DNA of 34,607 bases from IMG/VR virus record IMGVR_UViG_3300007734_000610, positions 1 through 34,607 of that record, one strand, 5' to 3'. Both the position numbers and the translations under genes were made by a program. Positions within the stretch are counted from its first letter, which is position 1; each line of letters begins with the position of its first letter. Below are positions 3,765 to 34,607 of this stretch, one piece after another. The notes below the pieces were generated by a model, which saw nothing but the letters and a program-made list of their open reading frames with translations, made no database searches and had not been told where the DNA came from. The DNA is from a virus.

Positions 3765-4582
3765 TGTCCCTCTCGCGCATAGGCGGCATCCTCTCCGCTG
3801 GACTCACTGGTCTAAATTTCCCCGTGGCTACGGTGGAGTATCTGTGCGTGGCGGGTGGGGGTGGTGGTGGTGCGACAACTGGCGGCGGCGGTGGCGGTGC
3901 TGGTGGGCTTTTAACTGCTACAGGTCTTGCAGTAGTAATTGGAACTTCTTACACAGTAACTGTTGGTGCTGGCGGGGCTGGCGGTACAGCAAGCGGAACA
4001 ACTGGGACAAACTCTGTTTTTAGTAGTATTACGGCAAACCGTGGCGGCTACGGGGCAACAGCAGCAACGAATGGTGAAGGTGGTAGCGGAACGGTAGGGT
4101 CTGGCGGTGGCGGTGGAACTTCAGGCACAGGAGGTGCTAGTACAGCAGCTCAAGGTTTTGCTGGGGGCAATGGTGCTACTGCCAATGGCGGTGGCGGTGG
4201 CGGTGCTGGATCGGTTGGTCTAAATGCGGTTGCAAGTTTATCTGGCGGTGGTGGCGGCACGGGCCTATGCTCCAGCATAAATGGATCAAGCGTTTTCTAT
4301 GCTGGTGGCGGGGGTGGAGGAAGTGCGGGTACGGCTGGACTAGGTTCTGCGGGTGCGGGTGCTGGTGGATCAGCATCAGGCTCTGCGGCATTAGCAAATT
4401 CTGGCTCTGGTGGTGGGGGGTCTATTACGGGGACTGCTGGTGCAGGCGGCTCAGGCATAGTAATCATCCGCTACCCATCATATCTAGCCCCGGCAACATC
4501 CACAACGGGCAGTCCCGAATCATATGTCACTGGCGGCTGGCGGGTTTATCGCTGGGTTGCCAGCGGCACAATCACATTCTAA
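3764..4582 (+). CDS. Glycine-rich tail adhesin-like protein, copy 1 (N-terminal type A)
   Basis: 272 residues. A short N-terminal segment (MSLSRIGGILSAGLTG...) leads into VEYLCVAGGGGGG and then about 200 residues of polyglycine blocks. It ends with GSGIVIIRYP and a C-terminal strand region closing in VASGTITF. This is the layout of the phage glycine-rich domain family. Polyglycine-II packing of this kind forms the receptor-binding tip adhesins known from T-even-like phages (gp38 type). A longer frame from GTG 3746 exists, but ATG 3764 overlaps the previous stop and aligns with the type A paralogue at 5403. The probable role is host-surface recognition. Confidence 0.65.
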   Translation: MSLSRIGGILSAGLTGLNFPVATVEYLCVAGGGGGGATTGGGGGGAGGLLTATGLAVVIGTSYTVTVGAGGAGGTASGTTGTNSVFSSITANRGGYGATAATNGEGGSGTVGSGGGGGTSGTGGASTAAQGFAGGNGATANGGGGGGAGSVGLNAVASLSGGGGGTGLCSSINGSSVFYAGGGGGGSAGTAGLGSAGAGAGGSASGSAALANSGSGGGGSITGTAGAGGSGIVIIRYPSYLAPATSTTGSPESYVTGGWRVYRWVASGTITF

Positions 4583-4584
4583 TT

Positions 4585-5406
4585 ATGGCATCAGGAATAT
4601 TTACATTAAGACAAGTGCTGCAAGGCATCCGGCAAGGCGCTTGGACGGGCAATATCGCACCGCAATGGGTTGAGTATCTTGTGGTTGCTGGTGGCGGGGG
4701 TGCAGCTTCTGAAGGCGGCGGCGGTGCTGGTGGACTTCTATCAGGGATTCTTCCCGTTACTCCCGGTGCTACTCTAACGGTTACTGTTGGTGGTGGTGGT
4801 GCTTCTGGAGCGTCTTCTGCAAATGGAGATAATTCTGTTTTTTCAACCATTACTGCTTCCGGGGGTGGCCGTGCCGTTAATGGTGGTGGCGCTGGCGTTT
4901 CTGGTGGCTCAGGCGGCGGCGGTGGCAGTGGGCAAGGCGCTGGGGGTCAGGGGACGGTTGGTCAAGGTAATTCTGGTGGCTCTAGTTCAAATGGTAATAT
5001 AGCGGCAGGTGGTGGCGGGGCGGGTACGATTGGGCTTAACGCAGTATCTGTTGGTGGCAACGGCGGGGCGGGTATCGCATCAGCAATTAACGGGACGGTC
5101 ACACCTTACGCTGGCGGCGGTGGTGGCGGTGCTTACACGGTGGCGGCTGGTCTAGGCGGTGCTGGTGGAGGTGGTGCTGGTGGTACTGGTGCTGGTGCTG
5201 GAACTGCTGGAACTGCTAATACAGGTGGTGGTGGTGGTGGCTCATGGGCATCTCCATATGGCATAGGTGGTTCAGGCATAGTCATCGTGAGGTATCCCGT
5301 CCAATACCGCGATGCAACCACATCTACAGGTGCAACAAAGACAACTGCTAACGGCTACACCATCTACACATGGACAACTAGCGGAACTGTGAGTTTTGTA
5401 ATATGA
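4585..5406 (+). CDS. Glycine-rich tail adhesin-like protein, copy 2 (N-terminal type B)
   Basis: 273 residues, a paralogue of copy 1. The N-terminus (MASGIFTLRQVLQGIRQ, then WTGNIAP) differs from copy 1 but matches the copy at 6645. It is followed by VEYLVVAGGGG, polyglycine blocks, GSGIVIVRYP and a C-terminal YTIYTWTTSGTVSF strand. The two added residues VI arise because the stop overlaps the next start (ATGA at 5403-5406). The open frame extends upstream through copy 1 in another phase, but only ATG 4585, two bases after the previous stop, gives the family N-terminus. Probable tail-tip adhesin. Confidence 0.65.
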   Translation: MASGIFTLRQVLQGIRQGAWTGNIAPQWVEYLVVAGGGGAASEGGGGAGGLLSGILPVTPGATLTVTVGGGGASGASSANGDNSVFSTITASGGGRAVNGGGAGVSGGSGGGGGSGQGAGGQGTVGQGNSGGSSSNGNIAAGGGGAGTIGLNAVSVGGNGGAGIASAINGTVTPYAGGGGGGAYTVAAGLGGAGGGGAGGTGAGAGTAGTANTGGGGGGSWASPYGIGGSGIVIVRYPVQYRDATTSTGATKTTANGYTIYTWTTSGTVSFVI

Positions 5407-6275
5407 GCCAAACTCTGTTGGGCGGCTTCCTCAGCGCCACATTCAACCCTCTGTCCGGCGCACCTACGACAGTCGAATATCTTGTCGTGGCTGGCGGGGG
5501 TGGTGGTGGGAATTGGAACGGCGCTACTGGTGCTGGCGGCGGCGCGGGTGGGCTTCTTAGTGCAGCAGGATTTGCGGTAACTGTCGGGTCATCTATTACC
5601 ATTACGGTTGGCGGCGGCGGGGCCGCTGGAACCGGGTCAGCAGTAGGAACATCTGGCGATAGTTCCGTTATTGTTGGCGTTGCAACTATTACTTCTACTG
5701 GCGGTGGCGGCGGTGCAGGTTCTTCTGGAAACGGTGCAAACGGTGGCTCTGGTGGTGGTGCAAGAGGGGATTCAGGGTCTACAGGAGGAACTGGAACTTC
5801 TGGACAAGGCTTTGCTGGTGGTGCGGGTGCGGCTTCTGCCGCATTAAGCGCATCTGGTGGTGGCGGTTCTGGTTCAGTTGGATTGATTTGCGATGCCGCT
5901 TCTCCTTATGGCGGCGGCGGCGGTGGCACAGGGACTTGTTCTAGCATCACAGGCAGTAGGATGTTGTACGCTGGTGGCGGTGGTGGCGGTAGCTATTATT
6001 CTGGCGTCAGCCTTGGGGTAGCGGGTGGTGGCAACGGGGGCCTTGGTGATCTTGGAGGAAATGCTACTTCTGCAACATCTAACTCTGGAAGTGGCGGTGG
6101 TGGAAACGGCACTACGGGAAAATCAGGGGCAGGCGGCTCAGGCATAGTCATCATCCGTTACCCCACAACACAGTCACCACCAGCATCATTTGGCGGTGCA
6201 AACACACCACAAGTTTTATACTCAGACGGTTATCAAATATACATCTGGACAGCCAGCGGCACTGTTACTTTTTAA
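5403..6275 (+). CDS. Glycine-rich tail adhesin-like protein, copy 3 (N-terminal type A)
   Basis: 290 residues. The N-terminus MSQTLLGGFLSATFNPLSG aligns with copy 1 (LxGGxLSA), followed by TTVEYLVVAGGGGGG, glycine blocks, GSGIVIIRYP and a terminal YQIYIWTASGTVTF. The core differs from copy 1 in the spacers between glycine runs, as expected for surface-exposed loops under diversifying selection. It is coupled to copy 2 by an ATGA overlap. Adhesin function is inferred from family resemblance. Confidence 0.65.
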   Translation: MSQTLLGGFLSATFNPLSGAPTTVEYLVVAGGGGGGNWNGATGAGGGAGGLLSAAGFAVTVGSSITITVGGGGAAGTGSAVGTSGDSSVIVGVATITSTGGGGGAGSSGNGANGGSGGGARGDSGSTGGTGTSGQGFAGGAGAASAALSASGGGGSGSVGLICDAASPYGGGGGGTGTCSSITGSRMLYAGGGGGGSYYSGVSLGVAGGGNGGLGDLGGNATSATSNSGSGGGGNGTTGKSGAGGSGIVIIRYPTTQSPPASFGGANTPQVLYSDGYQIYIWTASGTVTF

Positions 6276-6287
6276 GAGGAGATAGGA

Positions 6288-6641
6288 ATGGCACATTTTG
6301 CTAAGGTGGAAAACGGAATAGTAACTTCGGTCATCGTGATTGATCAAGAAACCCTGAAACTCGGGCATTGGGGTGACCCCGCACTCTGGGTTCAGACTTC
6401 ATACAATACTTCCGGTGGGCAGCATCCACAGGGTAGACCGCTGCGTAAGAACTACGCTGGGATTGGTTATCTGTATGACGGTGTAGGTTTCTATGCCCCA
6501 TCACCATACCCTAGCTGGACTAAAGACGAGGCTACCTACCAATGGTCTGCCCCTACGCCGATGCCCGTTGTCGAGGGTAAGATGTTTAACTGGGATGAAC
6601 CCACATTGGCATGGGTTGAGCGGGTAACCGCAGAGGTATAA
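6288..6641 (+). CDS. Conserved fibre-associated phage protein
   Basis: 117 residues starting MAHFAKVENGIVTSVIVI, a start I recognise from small proteins that sit next to tail-fibre genes in cyanophages and other environmental phages. It is Trp/Tyr/Pro-rich (GIGYLYDGVGFYAPSPYPSW) and lacks a signal peptide or transmembrane helix. The SD AAGAGGAG is strong. It separates adhesin copies 3 and 4. A role as fibre cap, chaperone or virion component is plausible, but the function is unknown. Confidence 0.6.
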   Translation: MAHFAKVENGIVTSVIVIDQETLKLGHWGDPALWVQTSYNTSGGQHPQGRPLRKNYAGIGYLYDGVGFYAPSPYPSWTKDEATYQWSAPTPMPVVEGKMFNWDEPTLAWVERVTAEV

Positions 6642-6644
6642 AAG

Positions 6645-7562
6645 ATGGCCCAGTATTCCGGGATGTGGACACTAAGTCAGGTGTCCCAAGCAGTCAAAGA
6701 CCAGAACTGGACGGGGATAGCACCGCCAAATATTGAGTATTTGATTGTTGCCGGGGGCGGGGGTGCGGCAAGTGGTTTTGGCAATCTAGGTGGTGGTGGT
6801 GGCGGTGCAGGTGGATTGCTGGCTGGCTTCTCAGGCGCTACTGCTGGTACACAGATTTGGGTGACTATAGGAGCAGGCGGTGCTGGTGCTTCGGTAAGTT
6901 CTGGCGCACTTGGTGTCTCAGGTGGAAATTCTGTTTTAGTTGCTACATCTTCTGCTGCAACCACAGGAAACTTTGTAGCTATTGGCGGCGGCGCGTCTAA
7001 ATCTCAAGGAGTCGCTTCAGCCGCTTATTCTGGGGGTTCCGGGGGTGGTGGAACATGGTCAGATGTTAGTGCAGGCGCTGGAACTTCTGGGCAAGGTAAC
7101 GCTGGCGGTGCAAGTACAACATCCGCACCCGCTTATGCTGGTGGTGGCGGGGGAGGTGCTGGAACTGTAGGGCTAAACGCTACTAGTGCATCTGGCGGTA
7201 ATGGCGGCGCTGGAATAGCATCTGCCATTAACGGAACAGTCACTACATACGCTGGCGGCGGCGGTGGTGGTTCAGTAAGTGGTTTTACATCTGGCGGTGT
7301 TGGTGGTGGCGGTGCTGGAAACTCATCCTATGTAGGAGGCGGTTCAAGTGGAACAGCCAACACAGGCGGCGGCGGGGGCGGCGGTGCTGGAAATGGCGGT
7401 GGCACAGGCGGCGCAGGCGGTTCAGGCATCGTAATAATCCGCTATCCCAACATATTCAAAGACGCAGCAATAGTTACCAACGGAACAAAGACATCATTTC
7501 CTGTAGTAAACCCCACATGGACGATCTATACCTTCACCACCAGCGGGTCGATCACTTTCTGA
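6645..7562 (+). CDS. Glycine-rich tail adhesin-like protein, copy 4 (N-terminal type B)
   Basis: 305 residues, the largest of the four. The N-terminus MAQYSGMWTLSQVSQAVKDQ, then WTGIAPPNIEYLIVAGGGG, matches type B copy 2 (..TL.QV.Q...Q..WTG.IAP). Polyglycine blocks are followed by GSGIVIIRYP and WTIYTFTTSGSITF. It closes the A-B-A-B series of adhesin paralogues. A probable tail-tip receptor-binding component; which copies are actually assembled cannot be told from sequence. Confidence 0.65.
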   Translation: MAQYSGMWTLSQVSQAVKDQNWTGIAPPNIEYLIVAGGGGAASGFGNLGGGGGGAGGLLAGFSGATAGTQIWVTIGAGGAGASVSSGALGVSGGNSVLVATSSAATTGNFVAIGGGASKSQGVASAAYSGGSGGGGTWSDVSAGAGTSGQGNAGGASTTSAPAYAGGGGGGAGTVGLNATSASGGNGGAGIASAINGTVTTYAGGGGGGSVSGFTSGGVGGGGAGNSSYVGGGSSGTANTGGGGGGGAGNGGGTGGAGGSGIVIIRYPNIFKDAAIVTNGTKTSFPVVNPTWTIYTFTTSGSITF

Positions 7563-10176: not shown

Positions 10177-10347
10177 ATGGCAACTTTTCAATGTCTTCAA
10201 AGTGGTAATTTTGTCACCTTTACATTGCCGTATGACATCAAGACAATGATGGTACACCCGGAATACAAGTTGGTAGAAGAAGTACCTCCACAACCTCAAC
10301 CGCGCATCGGACGCCCCCGAAAGGTGGTAGAAGATGTCGACCATTGA
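10177..10347 (+). CDS. Small protein with AT-hook-like motif
   Basis: A 56-residue frame, too short for many callers. It has an N-terminal beta-like part (MATFQCLQSGNFVTFTLPYD) and a C-terminal PRIGRPRKV, which resembles the GRP core of an AT-hook. An AGGA (TTTTAGGA) lies 5 bases before the start. Short proteins with a folded N-terminus and a basic RGRPRK-like tail are common beside capsid genes in this phage type. DNA binding is possible; the function is unknown. Confidence 0.5.
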   Translation: MATFQCLQSGNFVTFTLPYDIKTMMVHPEYKLVEEVPPQPQPRIGRPRKVVEDVDH

Positions 10348-10537
10348 CGCGAGAGACTTTGGAAAATTGGAGGCTCAAGTAGAGGCGCTGCAAGAAGAAG
10401 TACGCGCGCTCAGTAAGGATGTTAAGGCGCTACTTGAGTTGGCTAACAAGGGAAAAGGCGGCTTTTGGATGGGCATGATGATCGCCAGCGCCGTAGGTGG
10501 ATTTTTGACTTTTATAGGCTCAAGGTTGCTAAAATGA
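10334..10537 (+). CDS. Coiled-coil plus single-TM protein, holin/XhlA-like
   Basis: 67 residues: an amphipathic helix with heptad spacing (FGKLEAQVEALQEEVRALSKDV), a short basic/Gly linker, then one hydrophobic segment (WMGMMIASAVGGFLTFIG) and a basic end. This is the architecture of XhlA-type lysis proteins and some phage tail or membrane proteins. It overlaps the previous frame by 14 bases. It lies far from the endolysin, which weakens a lysis role. Confidence 0.5.
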   Translation: MSTIDARDFGKLEAQVEALQEEVRALSKDVKALLELANKGKGGFWMGMMIASAVGGFLTFIGSRLLK

Positions 10538-10571
10538 TAGCAAGACATTACGATCAATCAAAGGAAAAGCC

Positions 10572-15754: not shown

Positions 15755-17281
15755 ATGGCAACTAACATTGTTCCGGGTCTTTTCGGCGTAACGCCCGAAT
15801 CGTACCGTCAGCAGCAGCAAGCTGCGTTCGATGCGCGCGCGTTTCAAAATGTTAAGCTAACCTCCGAACAGCAGGCCAACTTGAACATCCAAAGCGGCGC
15901 CTATGGGCTGGCCGGTGGGATAGGCCGCATGTTGGGCGGCGAAGACCCGCAGATGAAGATCATCAGCGGTCGCAATGCTGTGCTGCAACAAATCGACCAA
16001 TCGAGTCCTGAGTCGATCATGCAGGGCGCAAAGCTGCTTGCCCAATCAGGCGATAACGAAGGCGCCATGAGCCTGGCCAACTACGCCCGTCAAGCGCAAT
16101 CTGAACTGGCTGGCGTAGAGCAGAAGCGCGCTCAAACACAAGCATCATTGGCAGCAGCGGCTAGAACGCCTAAAGAAACTGTAGCCCCGGCGGTTCAGAT
16201 ATCAAATGCTATTGAAGAAACTGTGCGGTTTATGAAGACACTTTCTCCGTATAGCTCAGAATACGCTGGGATGGAGGCTAAACTTGCGGCGTTGCACGCC
16301 CAACTTAAAACAGAAAAAGCTAAGTCTTCTACCCAAGATGAACGGTTAATAACATCCATAGAGACTGTAGAAGATTTATTGCGGGATGGTAAATCGCCTA
16401 CACCAGGGCAGTTATCTACTGCAAATATGGCGGCTCAATTGCTGGCTAAACCACGGTCATTTTTTGACCCAACAAGCGGCCAAATGACAACGGTTCCAGC
16501 AGCAGATCCATCAAAAGCGTACCCATTGACATATAAGGCTTTTGGTGAAGGCGCGCCAAAAACGACTACAGTAACCGCGCAACAGGCAACGCCAGGTAAT
16601 CTTCCAGCAGCGTCACAAACACAAATAAGCGACATAGATGCCTCGCTTAAAAAACTTGAAAATTCTAAGCCAGAATTGCAGTCTTTCTTAGCCTCGTTAA
16701 AAAGTGGTGACATTAAATATAATGCTACTTCCAACACGCTAGACCTGTTAGGCGCTACTGTTTTACCAGCGTTTGGTTTCGCAGAACAAGGAGGCCAGGT
16801 AAAGAAAGATGAAATAAAACGCGCCTTAACACAGCGCGTAAACACTCTGTTACTGGCGGCAAAAGGAACGCAAACAGAAGGAGATGCGGTCAGGGCTGCG
16901 GATCAAATTGCTAGTGGCACAACTTATCTGAGCCAAGCGCGCATGATAGGCGCTATAGAAGGACTAGCCGTAACAGAGGATAAATTGGCTTCTGAACTTG
17001 GGGTTAAAAAAGCTACTTTACAATCGCAAGGCCGTCCACCAGCCCCAGCGGCACCGGCACCGGCACCAGCCCCAGCGGCACCGGCACCGGCACCAGCCCC
17101 AGCGGCACCGGCACCGGCACCGGCACCGGCACCGGCACCGGCACCGGCACCGGCACCGGCACCGGCAGCAAATATTCGGGAACAAAAAATTAACGAATTT
17201 ATTGCGTTTAATAAAAATAAACCAACTCGTCAGCAAGCCATAGACGCGCTTGTTAAAGCGGGTAGAATTTCTAAGGAGTAG
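15755..17281 (+). CDS. Ejection (internal virion) protein 2 with Pro-Ala repeat
   Basis: 508 residues, helical and Gln/Ala-rich. Near the N-terminus a QSGAYGLAGGIGRMLGGEDP segment resembles proteins encoded after ejection protein 1 in related environmental phages. The region 430-475 is an (Ala-Pro) repeat encoded by a hexanucleotide microsatellite, acting as a stiff linker to a short C-terminal domain (INEFIAFNKNKPTRQQAIDALVKAG). The SD TAAGGA overlaps the previous stop. The role follows from position and composition. Confidence 0.6.
   Translation: MATNIVPGLFGVTPESYRQQQQAAFDARAFQNVKLTSEQQANLNIQSGAYGLAGGIGRMLGGEDPQMKIISGRNAVLQQIDQSSPESIMQGAKLLAQSGDNEGAMSLANYARQAQSELAGVEQKRAQTQASLAAAARTPKETVAPAVQISNAIEETVRFMKTLSPYSSEYAGMEAKLAALHAQLKTEKAKSSTQDERLITSIETVEDLLRDGKSPTPGQLSTANMAAQLLAKPRSFFDPTSGQMTTVPAADPSKAYPLTYKAFGEGAPKTTTVTAQQATPGNLPAASQTQISDIDASLKKLENSKPELQSFLASLKSGDIKYNATSNTLDLLGATVLPAFGFAEQGGQVKKDEIKRALTQRVNTLLLAAKGTQTEGDAVRAADQIASGTTYLSQARMIGAIEGLAVTEDKLASELGVKKATLQSQGRPPAPAAPAPAPAPAAPAPAPAPAAPAPAPAPAPAPAPAPAPAPAANIREQKINEFIAFNKNKPTRQQAIDALVKAGRISKE
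17038..17166 (+). repeat. 27-bp and ACCGGC tandem repeats
   Basis: Two copies of a 27-bp unit (17038-17064, 17065-17091) and a third that starts at 17092 run into ten perfect ACCGGC hexamers (17107-17166). All unit lengths are multiples of three, so copy-number changes alter the length of the Ala-Pro linker in the ejection protein without shifting the frame. Confidence 0.9.
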
Positions 17282-22972: not shown

Positions 22973-23208
22973 GGTCTTGTCGTTTCAATAGCGACGCCGT
23001 GGTGATCCGCGACGAGGGTTTGTTTTCCGCCAAATTTTTTATGCAAATCTTCAGCAATCAGTTCGTGAAAGCCGCTGGCGTAGTTTTTAAATTGGTCAAT
23101 GATGTCTTCTACCGGAATTATTTCTTCTGTGGTAATCTCCAAAAAATATTTGATGCGCGTTTCGTTGAGAGGGCATAAGCAAAAAAATTCAGTCTTGTAG
23201 GTATTCAT
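22969..23208 (-). CDS. DpdA-adjacent small protein, possible minimal T-fold
   Basis: 79 residues. It sits between dpdA (20-base overlap) and the transporter (ATGA overlap). The sequence reads as two strands (TYKTEFFCLCP, RIKYFLEITTEE), two helices (VEDIIDQFKNYA, FHELIAEDLHKKF) and two strands (KQTLVADH, HGVAIETTRP), i.e. beta-beta-alpha-alpha-beta-beta. That is the order of the T-fold used by QueD, QueF, FolE and FolB, enzymes of pterin and 7-deazaguanine pathways. The similarity is by eye only, and I do not recognise a named family. The longer open frame upstream is dpdA antiphase sequence. Confidence 0.6.
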   Translation of the reverse strand: MNTYKTEFFCLCPLNETRIKYFLEITTEEIIPVEDIIDQFKNYASGFHELIAEDLHKKFGGKQTLVADHHGVAIETTRP

Positions 23209-23908
23209 AAATTGACGGTGCGTTGTGTGACTCAATGCGTGATCGCATGACTTGCGCGCGCGCTTCTTTAGCGGGGGGCAAATAGTTCCCCTTTGCCCAA
23301 TTCTTGTCAATGCCGACATTGCGGCCAATGTTGGTTGAATCGGCGCTGGCAAGCGGAAGGCGCGTAAATACTTTTGGGTTTAGCATCCGAAGGCCGTGCA
23401 TTTTGACTAGGGGACGCCCTTGCGAGTCACAAACTACGCGCATTGCTTGGTCAATTCGTTTCCACCAAGCATCGTTTCCTACGGTGGCGTATTGGCCGCT
23501 GCTGCCAAGGCACACACGCAAGTATGTCAAGGCCATTCGCTCCAGCCTGTCTAACGATTCGTGCATATGCCATACAGGCGCGCCGAAAGCCGCACCCAAA
23601 GGCCATTCATCCAACAACGCATCGTTTGCGTTTTCGTCGCCGTCAATCACATCGGGGATGACCGCAAAGTCACACGATGGGACACGCCGGCATGACTCGG
23701 CCCACTCATAAAACGGGCGCCAATCGGTTACGGGCCGCCCGGCTTTCCACGCGGAAAAAGCGCCGTTGTCAATCGCAAACGATTGGCACACCCCTATGGC
23801 TATGCCTAGTTGATCTAAATGAGCAAAACTAACAAATGCGTGCCCTCCGTTAACGGCTACTACGGCCACCGTAGCTGGCGTAATCGGTAGCCCGTGGTAG
23901 TGGATCAT
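23189..23908 (-). CDS. dpdA: DpdA-type DNA 7-deazaguanine transglycosylase (phage form)
   Basis: 239 residues, a TIM-barrel of the tRNA-guanine transglycosylase superfamily in its short phage form. Blocks in order: HYHG (3-6), HAFVSFAHLDQL (23-34), CQSFAIDNGAFSAW (41-54), FAVIPDVIDG (81-90) with DENAND, PVWHMHES (111-118), CLGSSGQYATVG (133-144), KMHGLRMLNP (169-178) and SADSTNIGRN (188-197). These are the family hallmarks. The enzyme exchanges guanine in DNA for a 7-deazaguanine such as preQ0. ATG 23908 overlaps the previous stop (ATGA); the frame extends to GTG 23938. I see no synthesis genes in the window, but a transporter follows. Confidence 0.85.
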   Translation of the reverse strand: MIHYHGLPITPATVAVVAVNGGHAFVSFAHLDQLGIAIGVCQSFAIDNGAFSAWKAGRPVTDWRPFYEWAESCRRVPSCDFAVIPDVIDGDENANDALLDEWPLGAAFGAPVWHMHESLDRLERMALTYLRVCLGSSGQYATVGNDAWWKRIDQAMRVVCDSQGRPLVKMHGLRMLNPKVFTRLPLASADSTNIGRNVGIDKNWAKGNYLPPAKEARAQVMRSRIESHNAPSIYEYLQD

Positions 23909-24051
23909 TTCCGCACTACTTGCACGGCCAGCAGCCACTTGTCTCCGAGAAACCGTACCGAGCGCACCCAGGCGCGCATGTTGTGCCTGTTCGTGTGCCT
24001 CTCAGCACAATTGAAGTGCGCCCGTACTCTAGTCAGCATGTTTGTTTTCAT
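23905..24051 (-). CDS. Small basic protein upstream of dpdA
   Basis: 48 residues: MKTNMLTRVRAHFNCAERHT, then RAWVRSVRFLGDKWLLAVQV. It is rich in Arg and Trp, without a membrane segment. It overlaps the preceding gene and dpdA by ATGA at each end, so the frame is well supported. Too small for functional inference; similar short proteins occur in phage early operons. Confidence 0.55.
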   Translation of the reverse strand: MKTNMLTRVRAHFNCAERHTNRHNMRAWVRSVRFLGDKWLLAVQVVRK

Positions 24052-25628: not shown

Positions 25629-25878
25629 CCACATCCTCCTTTGACCACAGCACTACATAGTGCTGTTTGAGTCGTAACATGTCCTCGGCGAAGATCAGTT
25701 GCAGCGCGGACATCTTGCCGCCTGCTGTCTTCAGCTCAACGAACCAAGTGCTGCCATCGGGCAAGCACACGATGCGGTCAGCCACACCGCCACGCCCGGG
25801 GCTGGTGAACTTGTACGCCTTGCCACCAATGGCCTCGACCTTTTTGACTAGGTAGCGTTCGACTTGCTTTTCAAGCAC
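25603..25878 (-). CDS. VRR-NUC domain nuclease
   Basis: 91 residues, the usual size of stand-alone phage VRR-NUC enzymes. Visible catalytic signature: E3 in LEKQVERYL, PGRGGVADRIV with D34, FVELK with E48 and K50, and Q60 in SALQ. This is the PD-(D/E)XK-type fold that cleaves branched DNA in other members. GTG 25878 gives the standard N-terminus (MLEK..E.YLVK.V); the ORF extends further upstream only in the antiphase of the preceding gene. Commonly paired with an SNF2 helicase, as here. Confidence 0.8.
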   Translation of the reverse strand: MLEKQVERYLVKKVEAIGGKAYKFTSPGRGGVADRIVCLPDGSTWFVELKTAGGKMSALQLIFAEDMLRLKQHYVVLWSKEDVDEFTALST

Positions 25879-26317
25879 AGTTTCGTTCCCATCGTATACG
25901 AGCAATGTTCGCCGAACCAATGTAACTTCTAGCGCGAGATGGGGCGTTCCACCCAGCACGCGGCGCTAATGTTTGCGTTGGCGTCCACCCCGCGCCGCGC
26001 AAAGAAGCGCCAGATTCATCATGCTGCGTATATGTCACGCATTTTGCATAGCCAAGTGCTGTTGCTGCGCGGACGATTGCGCCGTAAAGCATTGAGTTGG
26101 CGTTGCGCGTGCCGTCTGTACAAGTACGAGTGACTTCTAACGTCATTCCATCGTCAAGCATTCGGGCTACTGGCCGTCCAGCTACTGCAACGCCTAAAAG
26201 ACGTCCGTCATCAAACACCCCCACGCTAAACTTATGCCCAACTGGCGGCTTGTTGTGTCGGTGATGCTCACGAACAAACGCTTGCGCGGTTTTAAGAGAT
26301 ACGGGTTTAATTCGCAC
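25871..26317 (-). CDS. XF1762-family protein (GNAT-like)
   Basis: About 148 residues. FVREHHRHNKPPVGHKF, VGVFDDGRLLGVAVAGRPVA, TLEVTRTCTDGTRNANSMLY and GYAKCVTYTQHDESGASLRG are the conserved blocks of the XF1762 phage family, whose layout resembles GNAT acetyltransferases. Start uncertain: GTG 26317 gives the usual MRIKPVS N-terminus; TTG 26326 is an alternative. It may act on a small molecule or a modified base, but no activity is established. Confidence 0.75.
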   Translation of the reverse strand: MRIKPVSLKTAQAFVREHHRHNKPPVGHKFSVGVFDDGRLLGVAVAGRPVARMLDDGMTLEVTRTCTDGTRNANSMLYGAIVRAATALGYAKCVTYTQHDESGASLRGAGWTPTQTLAPRAGWNAPSRARSYIGSANIARIRWERNCA

Positions 26318-26489
26318 GATGGGCAAACCCGTCTGCGGTCACCAAGCCGTTAGGCTCCAGCTCGACCATAATTGTTTTCTCGTGGCTGACGATGCTCACG
26401 CAGCTTGGGTTGTGCCCGTGCTGCAAGCAGTACTCTCGCAAAGCGGCTTGCAGTTCAGGAAGGGAAATTTCGATGGTGTGTGTTTTCAT
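26307..26489 (-). CDS. Small unknown protein, first gene of the minus operon
   Basis: 60 residues: MKTHTIEISLPELQAALREY, then HGHNPSCVSIVSHEKTIMVE. Alpha/beta, no recognised motif. It is the first gene after the promoter at 26496-26523, with its ATG about 7 bases from the -10 box and no SD, suggesting a leaderless transcript. Function unknown; as first gene of an early operon it could be regulatory. Confidence 0.55.
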   Translation of the reverse strand: MKTHTIEISLPELQAALREYCLQHGHNPSCVSIVSHEKTIMVELEPNGLVTADGFAHRAN

Positions 26490-30415: not shown

Positions 30416-32653
30416 ATGCAACACTTCATAGACTTTATCACATCTTTGGCCGTAGAAGGCGAGACTGCGCTATTTGTACGGCAAAAGCCAAAAACGCCGC
30501 TCGAATACCACGCCGATGGAGCGATCAAGGCCACCTGGCCGTCGTATCTGCCAGCTAAGTGGACGGGCAAGGGCGCCTGGTACGGCAACACCGCGTCCTT
30601 CATAGTCGACCGCTTTGTGGATGGGCGCATATCAGCGTCAGCGGCGAACTGCGAGTACATTCTAGTGATGATGCTCGACGATATCGGCACCAAGAGCAAG
30701 GCGCCACCCCTGCCGCCGACTTGGATCATGGAGACTTCGCCCGACAATTTCCAGTACGGTTACGCATTCGCCGAGCAGCCGCCCAAGGGCGAGTACGCCG
30801 CCGCGATCAAGGCCATCGCTGCTGCTGGCTTCACCGACCCCGGCGCCTGCAACCCAGTCCGCAATTTTCGCTTACCCGGCTCAGTCAACCTAAAGCCCGA
30901 GCGCGACGGCTTCGCGTCCCGCCTGGTCGAGTTTCACCCACAGCGCGAGTTTACGCTTGAGGGCATCTGCGCCGCTCTTGGTGTCACTCCGGGGCCAGTC
31001 GAGGCCACGCACCGCCCGATTCGACTGACCGATGACGGCACCGATGATGTGCTGGCGTGGTTGTCCGCGCAGGGTCATGTACTGTCGCGCCCTAATTTCG
31101 AGGGCTGGGCTGGCGTCACTTGCCCACAGTCCGATCAGCACACCGACGGCAACCCGGAAGGCCGCTATCTTGCGTCCAGTCGCGCCTACTGCTGCCTGCA
31201 CTCACATTGCATCGATTACGGTTCGGCCGACTTCTTGGCCTGGGTCGAGGCCCAAGGCGGCCCCCGGCACACTACAGGCTTGCGCGAGGAGTTATTAGCG
31301 TCTGTCATGGAGGGCGCACTCGCCAAGCTGGCGCCGACCGCCGCCTACCCGGACGCCGCCGCCGAGGTGATCGCGCAGGTAGAGCGCCGCGAGGTGAGCC
31401 GGTTAGAGCGCGAAGAATGGTTCACCCGGTTCGCGTATCTACAGGACGATGACGCATACTTCGACCTGGAGGAGCGCCGCGAAGTGTCGCGCAGCACTTT
31501 TAACGCGCTCTTTCGGCACATTTTCTGCAAGTCAGTCCACGGTAAGGCCCGAGTCGAGGCCAGCGTATCGTTCGACCAGCACCGGCAGGCCAAGGGCGCG
31601 CACGCCCTGGTCGGCGTCACTTACGCGCCTGGGTCGCCGCTACTGGTCGGCGATACTCACGCCAACCGATGGCGCGACGCGCGCCCTGCTGGCGCTACGG
31701 CTGACTGTGGGCCGTGGCTGCGCCACCTCGAGCGCATGGTGCCAGAGTCGTACGAGCGTGAACACCTACTAAACATCATGGCGCACAAGCTGCAATTTCC
31801 AGCGCACAAGATCAATCACGCTATCCTATTGGGCGGCAATCACGGGTCTGGCAAAGATACCCTGATGGCGCCTTTTTTCTGGTCTATCGGAGGCCCGAGC
31901 AAGACTAATTGCTCCCTAGTCAGGAACGAGGAACTCACGCAAGTGTGGGGCTATGCGCTCGAATGCGAAGTGATGGAAATAGCCGAGCTGCGCCAGTCGG
32001 ACGCCAAAGATCGCCGCGCGCTGGAAAATACACTCAAGCCCATAATCGCGTCGCCGCCCGAGATGCTATCTATCCAGCGCAAGGGCTTGCACCCCTACAT
32101 GGCACTCAACCGCATCCTGGTAGTCGCGTTCTCGAACGAGCGCGCGGCTATCTCAATCCCATCAGAGGATCGCCGTTGGTTTGTCCTATGGTGCGAGGCC
32201 GACAAAATGCCCGAGCGCATGGCCACGGCTTTATGGAACTGGTACAAGCACCAGGACGGGTTTGCGGCGGTCGCAGCGCACCTGTACGCGCGCGATGTAT
32301 CAGGGTGGAACCCAGCCGCACCGCCGCCTATGACTGAGGCGAAGGCCATCATGGTCGAGCACGGCATGTCGATCGCGGAGTCATTCTTATCAGGCCAAAT
32401 ACGGGGCCGCATCGGCGAGTTTGCGCCTGGGGTTATCGGGTCGCCGTTCCACCTGCTATGCGATAGACTCACCGGCATGGCGCCTGCTGGCGTCAAACTG
32501 CCCCAGGCCGCGCTGCTGCACGCGCTGAAAGAATGCGGTTGGGTAGACTGCGGCCGCGTCGGGTCAGCGGCGCATCAGACCAAGAAACATGTATTTTGTG
32601 CGCCTGAACTCAGGACTACCTCGAAGTCCGAGTTGCGGCGCATCATAAACTAA
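30416..32653 (+). CDS. Primase-helicase (RepB-like primase plus DUF5906 helicase)
   Basis: 745 residues. The N-terminal part carries LDDIG (88-91) and MLDDIGTKSK, the acidic motif of RepB-like archaeo-eukaryotic primases, then NPVRNFRLPGSVN. A central zinc-type cluster has C236, H242, C259/C260, H262, H264 and C265. The C-terminal helicase has Walker A GGNHGSGKDT (473-482) followed by a DUF5906-type ATPase (LKPIIASPP, NRILVVAFSNE, DRRWFVLW). It would prime and unwind DNA for the family A polymerase upstream. SD AAAGGG. Confidence 0.85.
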   Translation: MQHFIDFITSLAVEGETALFVRQKPKTPLEYHADGAIKATWPSYLPAKWTGKGAWYGNTASFIVDRFVDGRISASAANCEYILVMMLDDIGTKSKAPPLPPTWIMETSPDNFQYGYAFAEQPPKGEYAAAIKAIAAAGFTDPGACNPVRNFRLPGSVNLKPERDGFASRLVEFHPQREFTLEGICAALGVTPGPVEATHRPIRLTDDGTDDVLAWLSAQGHVLSRPNFEGWAGVTCPQSDQHTDGNPEGRYLASSRAYCCLHSHCIDYGSADFLAWVEAQGGPRHTTGLREELLASVMEGALAKLAPTAAYPDAAAEVIAQVERREVSRLEREEWFTRFAYLQDDDAYFDLEERREVSRSTFNALFRHIFCKSVHGKARVEASVSFDQHRQAKGAHALVGVTYAPGSPLLVGDTHANRWRDARPAGATADCGPWLRHLERMVPESYEREHLLNIMAHKLQFPAHKINHAILLGGNHGSGKDTLMAPFFWSIGGPSKTNCSLVRNEELTQVWGYALECEVMEIAELRQSDAKDRRALENTLKPIIASPPEMLSIQRKGLHPYMALNRILVVAFSNERAAISIPSEDRRWFVLWCEADKMPERMATALWNWYKHQDGFAAVAAHLYARDVSGWNPAAPPPMTEAKAIMVEHGMSIAESFLSGQIRGRIGEFAPGVIGSPFHLLCDRLTGMAPAGVKLPQAALLHALKECGWVDCGRVGSAAHQTKKHVFCAPELRTTSKSELRRIIN

Positions 32654-34145: not shown

Positions 34146-34235
34146 AATTGTCTTAATTGTCACGGCATGGTCAACTTTTTTGGCCTGTTTTTTAGCGTGT
34201 TTCAGAGGGGAATAGTCCTAATTGTCTTAATTGTC
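34146..34235 (+). repeat. 9-bp phased AATTGTC repeats, direct arrays
   Basis: AATTGTC at 34146 and 34155, then AATAGTC at 34211, AATTGTC at 34220 and at 34229. Within each array the units start exactly 9 bases apart. Confidence 0.85.
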
Positions 34236-34337
34236 ATAGTTTTTTTAACTCAAGAAATGAAATAGATATATATAGGGCATTTCCCGGCATGCCACGCTCG
34301 CAAACGCTGTGCACGGGGTGCGACGCGAAAAAAGCGT

Positions 34338-34362
34338 GACAATTACGACAATTCGGACAATA
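34338..34362 (-). repeat. 9-bp phased AATTGTC repeats, inverted array
   Basis: GACAATT at 34338 and 34347 and GACAATA at 34356, again exactly 9 bases apart and in inverse orientation to the arrays at 34146-34235. Confidence 0.85.
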
Positions 34363-34397: not shown

Positions 34398-34435
34398 TGA
34401 CTATAATTTGACTATTCGTGACTATTTGTGACTAT
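34398..34435 (+). repeat. TGACTAT repeats with a TATAAT box
   Basis: TGACTAT starts at 34398, 34409, 34419 and 34429, i.e. steps of 11, 10 and 10 bases, about one helical turn. A perfect TATAAT (34402-34407) overlaps the first copy, but I find no -35 at normal spacing, suggesting an activator- or repressor-controlled promoter for the gene at 34438. Confidence 0.7.
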
Positions 34436-34437
34436 TG

Positions 34438-34607
34438 ATGCCTAGACCATGCAAACCCGATACGAAAGCGCTCCGACGCGATCTGGCGCCAGCAGAGCGC
34501 GCGATCATCCGGGCCGCAGGCGGCGGCGATCTGTCGCGTGGATTCAAAGAGTTGATGGCGATCTACAGCCACCTGCACGCGCTCGGTTACAGGTACGGCA
34601 TGGCGCC
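34438..34607 (+). CDS. Start of a gene cut by the window end
   Basis: 56 codons are visible: MPRPCKPDTKALRRDLAPAE, then AAGGGDLSRGFKELMAIYSH. It remains open at the edge. The basic N-terminus and the AGGG-LS-GF-ELM helix recall short phage DNA-binding proteins, but no family is identified. No SD is visible; a TTG immediately before the ATG is an alternative start. The repeat-flanked TATAAT upstream suggests tight regulation. Confidence 0.5.
   Translation, partial: MPRPCKPDTKALRRDLAPAERAIIRAAGGGDLSRGFKELMAIYSHLHALGYRYGMA

Follow-up and report, generated by a model that had tools for sequence, protein, structure and literature searches.

The window analysed here, the whole of the linear IMG/VR record IMGVR_UViG_3300007734_000610 (34,607 bases, from an uncultured aquatic tailed phage), carries close to its right end phased arrays of a short repeat around an AT-rich core. 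These arrays are very probably the iterons of a replication origin, which would be bound by the phage's own primase-helicase and whose specificity diversifies rapidly. The arrays, their conserved architecture and the co-variation of the repeat unit with a wing loop of the primase-helicase are apparent from sequence. Because the primase-helicase has a C-terminal DNA-binding domain, the iterons follow that domain from phage to phage, and inverted arrays surround the lowest-GC segment, a replication origin is the best explanation of this element. The initial annotation of the window had proposed iterons next to an unwinding element, a reading now strongly favoured by the conserved architecture, the lowest-GC core in six relatives and the co-variation of the unit with the C-terminal winged helix of the primase.

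The repeats fall into four arrays (Table 1). Eight copies of AATTGTC had been counted initially; six of them are exact, while the other two (AATAGTC at 34211 and TATTGTC at 34356) carry one mismatch each. Arrays of two and three units on the plus strand and three on the minus strand, in strict 9-bp phasing, are borne out by the exact coordinates, but a fourth array of GACTAT(T) units, further to the right, had been overlooked. The AT-rich stretch said to be flanked by the arrays is present, and its exact place is between arrays II and III, directly to the right of array II. Read on the minus strand, array III consists of two exact AATTGTC units (34338–34344 and 34347–34353) and the one-mismatch unit (34356–34362). 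Array IV ends one base short of the ATG of a small open reading frame (ORF), and its equivalents precede the same ORF in the relatives L010, L018, L019 and L013; the arrangement of array II recurs in L003/L083. The window contains 10 copies of AATTGTC, where dinucleotide shuffles have 3.7 ± 1.8 and none of 100 reaches 10. The double unit AATWGTCNNAATTGTC, with up to two mismatches, occurs five times against 0.23 expected, a count likewise reached by none of 100 shuffles. The 60-bp segment 34211–34270 has a GC content of 22%, and only a fraction of 0.0001 of the record's windows of this size is lower.

Table 1. Features of the putative origin region and of the proposed initiator (positions in the window)
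Feature	Coordinates	Strand	Remarks
Primase-helicase, proposed initiator	30416–32653	+	RepB_primase N-terminal part, DUF5906/SF3-like helicase, C-terminal winged helix; Pfam, PHROGs and fold matches
C-terminal domain, residues 636–745	32321–32650	+	Modelled winged helix; AlphaFold2 mean pLDDT 88 (domain alone)
Wing loop, residues 715–722 (VGSAAHQT)	32558–32581	+	Co-varies with iteron sequence across relatives
Array I	34146–34161	+	Two AATTGTC units 9 bp apart; exact matches at 34146 and 34155
Array II	34211–34235	+	AATAGTC 34211, AATTGTC 34220, AATTGTC 34229; 9-bp spacing; left half of inverted pair
AT-rich core	34236–34276	no strand	Putative unwinding element; ATAGATATATATAG at 34262–34275
Array III	34338–34362	-	GACAATT, GACAATT, GACAATA (inverted); 9-bp spacing; right half of inverted pair
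Array IV	34399–34436	-	GACTATA 34399, GACTATT 34410, 34420 and 34430; 10–11 bp apart
Small ORF	34438–34607	+	MPRPCKPDT..., truncated where the window ends; about 70 residues in relatives; tblastn; conserved

The relatives are IMG/VR phage contigs, and what they share with the window is the layout of the region. Clusters of AATWGTC were found in a single relative, L003/L083 (the same contig, primase 96% identical), the entire region of which aligns with the window at 85%. The initial annotation would have taken a lack of repeat conservation in close relatives as refutation; the letters are indeed confined to L003/L083, but position, phasing and inverted arrangement extend far wider, and a test based on letters could have misled. 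In other relatives, phased repeats of different sequence occupy the same place with respect to the small ORF. When arrays were sought de novo, many loci proved to have them downstream of the primase gene, with GTCCACA, GCCAACA, TGACCCA, TGACTA, TGACTCA, TGCCTAC, TNCCCTA and others as the unit, depending on the phage. Their common layout consists of inverted arrays of 8–11-bp-phased units, 60–150 bp apart, downstream of the primase gene. A motif-free search for inverted pairs of phased 6-mers at this distance found them in 44 of 134 primase loci, in all 44 exclusively downstream of the primase, and three sets of shuffled loci gave 0, 0 and 1. The lowest-GC 60 bp of the whole record lie at the array in six near-complete relatives.

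Further repeat families were seen in this survey. In L242 (MW202483.1, a public complete genome; primase 48% identical), the corresponding region (10226–10570) has 11 GTTTACA units, some in each orientation, that overlie ORFs annotated as hypothetical proteins; the units are probably an equivalent array. Eleven CATCCGA units lie upstream of the small ORF in L188, L226 and L228 (e.g. L228 2391–2568), loci that were found via the portal gene and whose stretch has no primase; these could represent a further origin class. L006/L007 (L006 6193–6359) and L086 have a second, palindromic repeat family, GTTAGTA/CACTAAC, adjoining the arrays. The distant DUF5906 phages L255–L259 show no such architecture within the stretch fetched.

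The proposed initiator combines a RepB_primase N-terminal part (PF16793, 24.9 bits against a cut-off of 24.3) with a helicase of superfamily 3 (SF3)-like fold and a DUF5906/D5-type C-terminal region (PF19263, E 1e-8), and it has a profile match to the NrS-1 protein (E 9e-11). The AlphaFold2 model of the helicase plus C-terminus (mean predicted local distance difference test score, pLDDT, 80) ends in a winged helix, in which the variable residues 715–722 lie in the loop between the two wing strands. The best match of this model in a fold search is NrS-1 PrimPol (6k9c; Z 23.1 over 297 residues, 16% identity), and the SaPI5 primase-helicase is found at Z 17.7. The C-terminal domain alone returns weak generic winged-helix matches (best Z 6.6), and the P4 origin-binding domain is not among the fold matches.

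It is this wing that tracks the repeat unit. When sliding-window identity along the primase, with whole-protein identity regressed out, is compared with sharing of the same repeat, residues 703–742 give a correlation of 0.38, an overlapping window gives 0.24, and no window elsewhere in the primase exceeds 0.13. Among pairs with different motifs within groups of similar primases, the most discriminating columns are residues 721, 716, 737, 734, 735, 719, 718, 717, 736 and 720, all C-terminal and mostly within 716–721 (permutation within primase groups, p = 0.001). Alignment by eye gives the corresponding pattern: R(L/I)KSR..D goes with GTCCACA, RLASR.YQT with GCCAACA, RLMSRDLT with TGACTA, R(I/L)AAQ.YPS with TGACCCAGA and LLKSRA.TT with TGACYCACA. 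In the comparison of TGACTA with TGACCCA phages, identity within and between the two classes is 0.875 and 0.370 for the wing, 0.925 and 0.918 for the primase body, 0.892 and 0.901 for the small terminase subunit (TerS), 0.903 and 0.906 for the large one (TerL), and 0.691 and 0.647 for the small ORF. The co-variation strongly suggests that the C-terminal domain of the initiator recognises the iterons.

Wings and backbones also occur in different combinations. L047 (GTCCACA) and L045 (GCCAACA) have one primase backbone with two wings, and each wing is also found on another backbone (L005 and L031, respectively). Different-motif pairs lose DNA identity right at the wing and tail, and same-motif pairs gain it at the wing. 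Between primase and array, the DNA of the same-motif, different-backbone pairs L005–L047, L045–L031 and L070–L047 is unalignable, so hitch-hiking of one recombined block does not explain the co-variation. The same intervening DNA is alignable over 26–70% in several pairs with different motifs on the same backbone, and little of it is alignable in L010–L018 as well, a pair with the same motif and the same backbone.

The pattern has predictive value. Rules leading from wing string to motif were fixed before two further scans, which, after removal of known contigs, left 51 new loci. Twenty-five of these fell under a rule; 17 had an array above threshold, and the unit was predicted correctly in all 17 and wrongly in none, although these are not 17 independent events because many of the loci are related to each other. 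Among the 26 loci outside the strict rules, examined post hoc, 17 have KSRR.D(N/S), with GTCCACA as the top motif in every one, and two with MSREFTT (primase identity 69%) have TGACTA.

Several observations weigh against an origin recognised by the wing. L036, L026 and L030 have the wing of GCCAACA phages (LASREYQT/LASREFQT) and mainly TGACCCACA/TGCCTACA units, and L087 and L088 share a wing and differ in their units (TGGCCCA and TGACCCA); the wing is thus not the whole code, and wing string and unit do not correspond one to one. The motif classes were partly curated by hand, one of the prediction rules permitted two motifs, and eight of the 25 rule-covered loci have no array above threshold. 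The window's own pair, VGSAAHQT with TGACAATT, recurs in one other contig only, the closely related L003/L083, and since the primase of this contig is nearly identical, the pair is supported by analogy with the other classes and not by a swap of its own. The strict exact-match architecture is missing from 90 of the 134 primase loci, in part because of short contigs or degenerate units. The array does not adjoin the primase gene but lies about 1.5 kb past it in the window and 1.5–4 kb past it in relatives. Lastly, cumulative GC skew, which the initial annotation had put forward as a check, has its detrended minimum in six relatives at a distance of 1.3–9.6 kb from the array, most often some kilobases upstream; the skew is confounded by gene strand and does not decide the question of the origin.

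We infer binding, oligomer loading, melting, origin activity and repression, as follows. The C-terminal winged helix of the primase-helicase would bind the ~9-bp units, each unit taking up one monomer, at a spacing of about one helical turn. The inverted pair, arrays II and III, would place two helicase assemblies of opposite orientation around the AT-rich core; the core would open and be primed by the primase-helicase itself. Arrays I and IV would serve as accessory units. With array IV reaching the start of the small ORF, the initiator may also repress that gene.

Other explanations of the arrays must be weighed against this origin. The initial annotation had also considered an operator cluster for an early regulator. 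The repeats would then serve to control the divergent transcription units, with either the small downstream protein or an early protein encoded on the minus strand as the transcription regulator, and would have no part in replication. Such a cluster would suit a divergent intergenic region in which array IV runs up to the start codon at 34438. By eye, a leftward TTGACA-15-TACAAT can be made out immediately to the left of the arrays, and we read the small downstream protein as resembling a DNA-binding protein (no family match lies above the cut-off). The operator reading is nevertheless improbable: a promoter scan gives no excess (1 site against 1.1 expected), and in the TGACTA/TGACCCA group the unit sequence is tracked by the primase wing and not by the small protein, TerS or TerL. 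The small protein was the first suspect for the co-varying partner because it abuts array IV; it was rejected in view of L010 and L016, which share its residues 1–54 yet carry GTAGTCA and TGACCCA units. Even less likely is a packaging site (cos/pac), with the units as terminase-recognition repeats upstream of terS and terL. The arrays do lie upstream of both genes in relatives, and the window and L083 both end less than 0.4 kb from the array, but neither TerL nor TerS follows the motif in the comparison of TGACTA with TGACCCA phages. TerL looked promising at first as the co-varying protein (82% identity for L010–L016, 98% for L010–L018 and L010–L080) until it was ruled out by L010–L029, 98% identical with different units. 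Furthermore, three relatives with end repeats of 115–126 bp begin at differing places relative to the array, and hence there is no fixed genome end at this point.

Binding sites for a host initiator of the DnaA type are the least credible of the alternatives. The DnaA-box consensus is TTATCCACA. One class of units, TTGTCCACA, is a single base away from it, but most classes (TGACTACA, TGACAATT, TGCCTACA) bear little resemblance to a DnaA box, and it is a phage protein that the units track. It is also conceivable, though about as improbable as the operator cluster, that the primase-helicase binds the units chiefly to repress its neighbours, by auto- or cross-regulation, and that the true origin lies elsewhere. 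Co-variation tells the binder and not the purpose of binding, and array IV shares sequence with the leader of the small ORF. Against this stands the layout, in which the lowest-GC segment of the genome lies between inverted arrays, the way origins are arranged in phage-inducible chromosomal islands (PICIs, PMC6092414) and Staphylococcus aureus pathogenicity islands (SaPIs, PMC7581432).

The proposed origin has its closest counterpart in the SaPI/PICI origins with their Rep/Pri-Rep initiators (PMC6092414, PMC7581432), where the origin likewise lies 3' of the initiator gene and the C-terminal domain of the primase-helicase recognises the iterons; the fold of the SaPI5 protein resembles that of the window protein over the helicase and C-terminus. 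Unlike in these satellites, the origin is not immediately next to the initiator gene, minus-strand ORFs lie in between, the unit sequences are mutually unrelated across a single phage lineage, and the carrier is a self-sufficient phage with portal, capsid and lysozyme genes in the window and TerL next to the array in relatives. The alpha protein of satellite phage P4 (Ziegelin and Lanka 1995 and Yeo 2002, cited in PMC4234260) is a primase-helicase whose winged-helix domain binds origin repeats, a counterpart of the winged helix predicted here. Alpha has a TOPRIM-type primase, whereas the N-terminus of the window protein matches RepB_primase. The NrS-1 primase-polymerase, the closest fold, is reported to have two copies of an 8-nt recognition sequence at the genome centre (PMC7102993) instead of phased arrays. 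In the PLE satellites of Vibrio cholerae (PICI-like elements), the DNA-binding domain of the initiator RepA co-varies with the iterons and the two are swapped as modules, as is apparently the case here, and the origin-directed nuclease Odn has been proposed as a driver of this diversification (PMC8263062, PMC7145576). The PLE initiator is unrelated, however, being a RepA_N protein without helicase or primase, and its iterons are semi-palindromes of ~30 bp. A C-terminal winged helix was also proposed to recognise the origin via helix α3 and the wing in the PrimPol-PV1 supergroup (PMC5862659); that proposal came without cognate sites, whereas here, with a different type of helicase, there are cognate arrays and co-variation of the wing.

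The kind of system is known; its occurrence in a widespread autonomous phage lineage, with a specificity that is strongly diversified and apparently exchangeable, is the novel part. PICI-type origin organisation, stated in 2018 to occur in no other known bacterial replicon, would thereby extend to autonomous phages. A broader proposal, to which we give an even chance, is that a common aquatic phage lineage maintains one origin architecture with many mutually distinct specificities. Each would match an iteron of ~9 bp to a wing loop of 8 residues and be exchanged largely independently of neighbouring genes and the primase body, with the pressure coming perhaps from nucleases directed at the origin, from satellites or from co-infecting relatives. 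The natural variation also poses the question why the specificity of a phage's own origin should keep changing. Origin recognition has been worked out for few phage primase-helicases, and the many matched iteron/wing pairs on near-identical backbones make a DNA-recognition code of the winged-helix wing directly testable; they are also candidate orthogonal origin/initiator pairs. For annotation, the arrays offer a marker of the origin position in many contigs of uncultured phages.

The window has no match among named phages in a near-match DNA search, and the closest named primase, 48% identical, is from an uncultured phage from Manatee Spring. Besides the primase-helicase, the replication block contains an exonuclease and a family A DNA polymerase. 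The arrays had been described as lying next to replication and early genes, but the replication genes proper end at 32653, and the neighbours on the left are small minus-strand ORFs (32.7–34.1 kb). The window ends inside the small ORF on the right, which, judging by relatives, is followed by TerS and TerL. GC-rich short repeats (GGCCACC/GCGGCCAG) lie between the small ORF and TerS in L083 (17304–17392), L179 (525–641), L087 (7966–8236) and L088 (17118–17389), and may be the reason why the window and L083 contigs end nearby.

Elsewhere in the window, a row of several paralogous glycine-rich proteins (4000–7560; GGGGGG..., ending in IVIIRYP) is probably tail-fibre or adhesin-like, and a coding repeat at 17013–17171 gives rise to a Pro-Ala run (PAPAPA...) at the end of a 508-residue protein (15755–17281). 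The minus-strand product of 22481–22972 matches PF02592 (Vut_1), the family of the queuosine-precursor transporter YhhQ, and a relative is annotated as a putative preQ0 transporter in Vibrio phage PS25B.1 (L259). The product of 23189–23938 (minus strand) resembles by eye the tRNA-guanine-transglycosylase-like DpdA, with no Pfam hit; together, these two proteins hint at 7-deazaguanine DNA modification. Another possible DNA-modification gene lies at 25871–26326 (minus strand), the product of which matches the Mom family PF25680 above the cut-off (E 3.5e-7).
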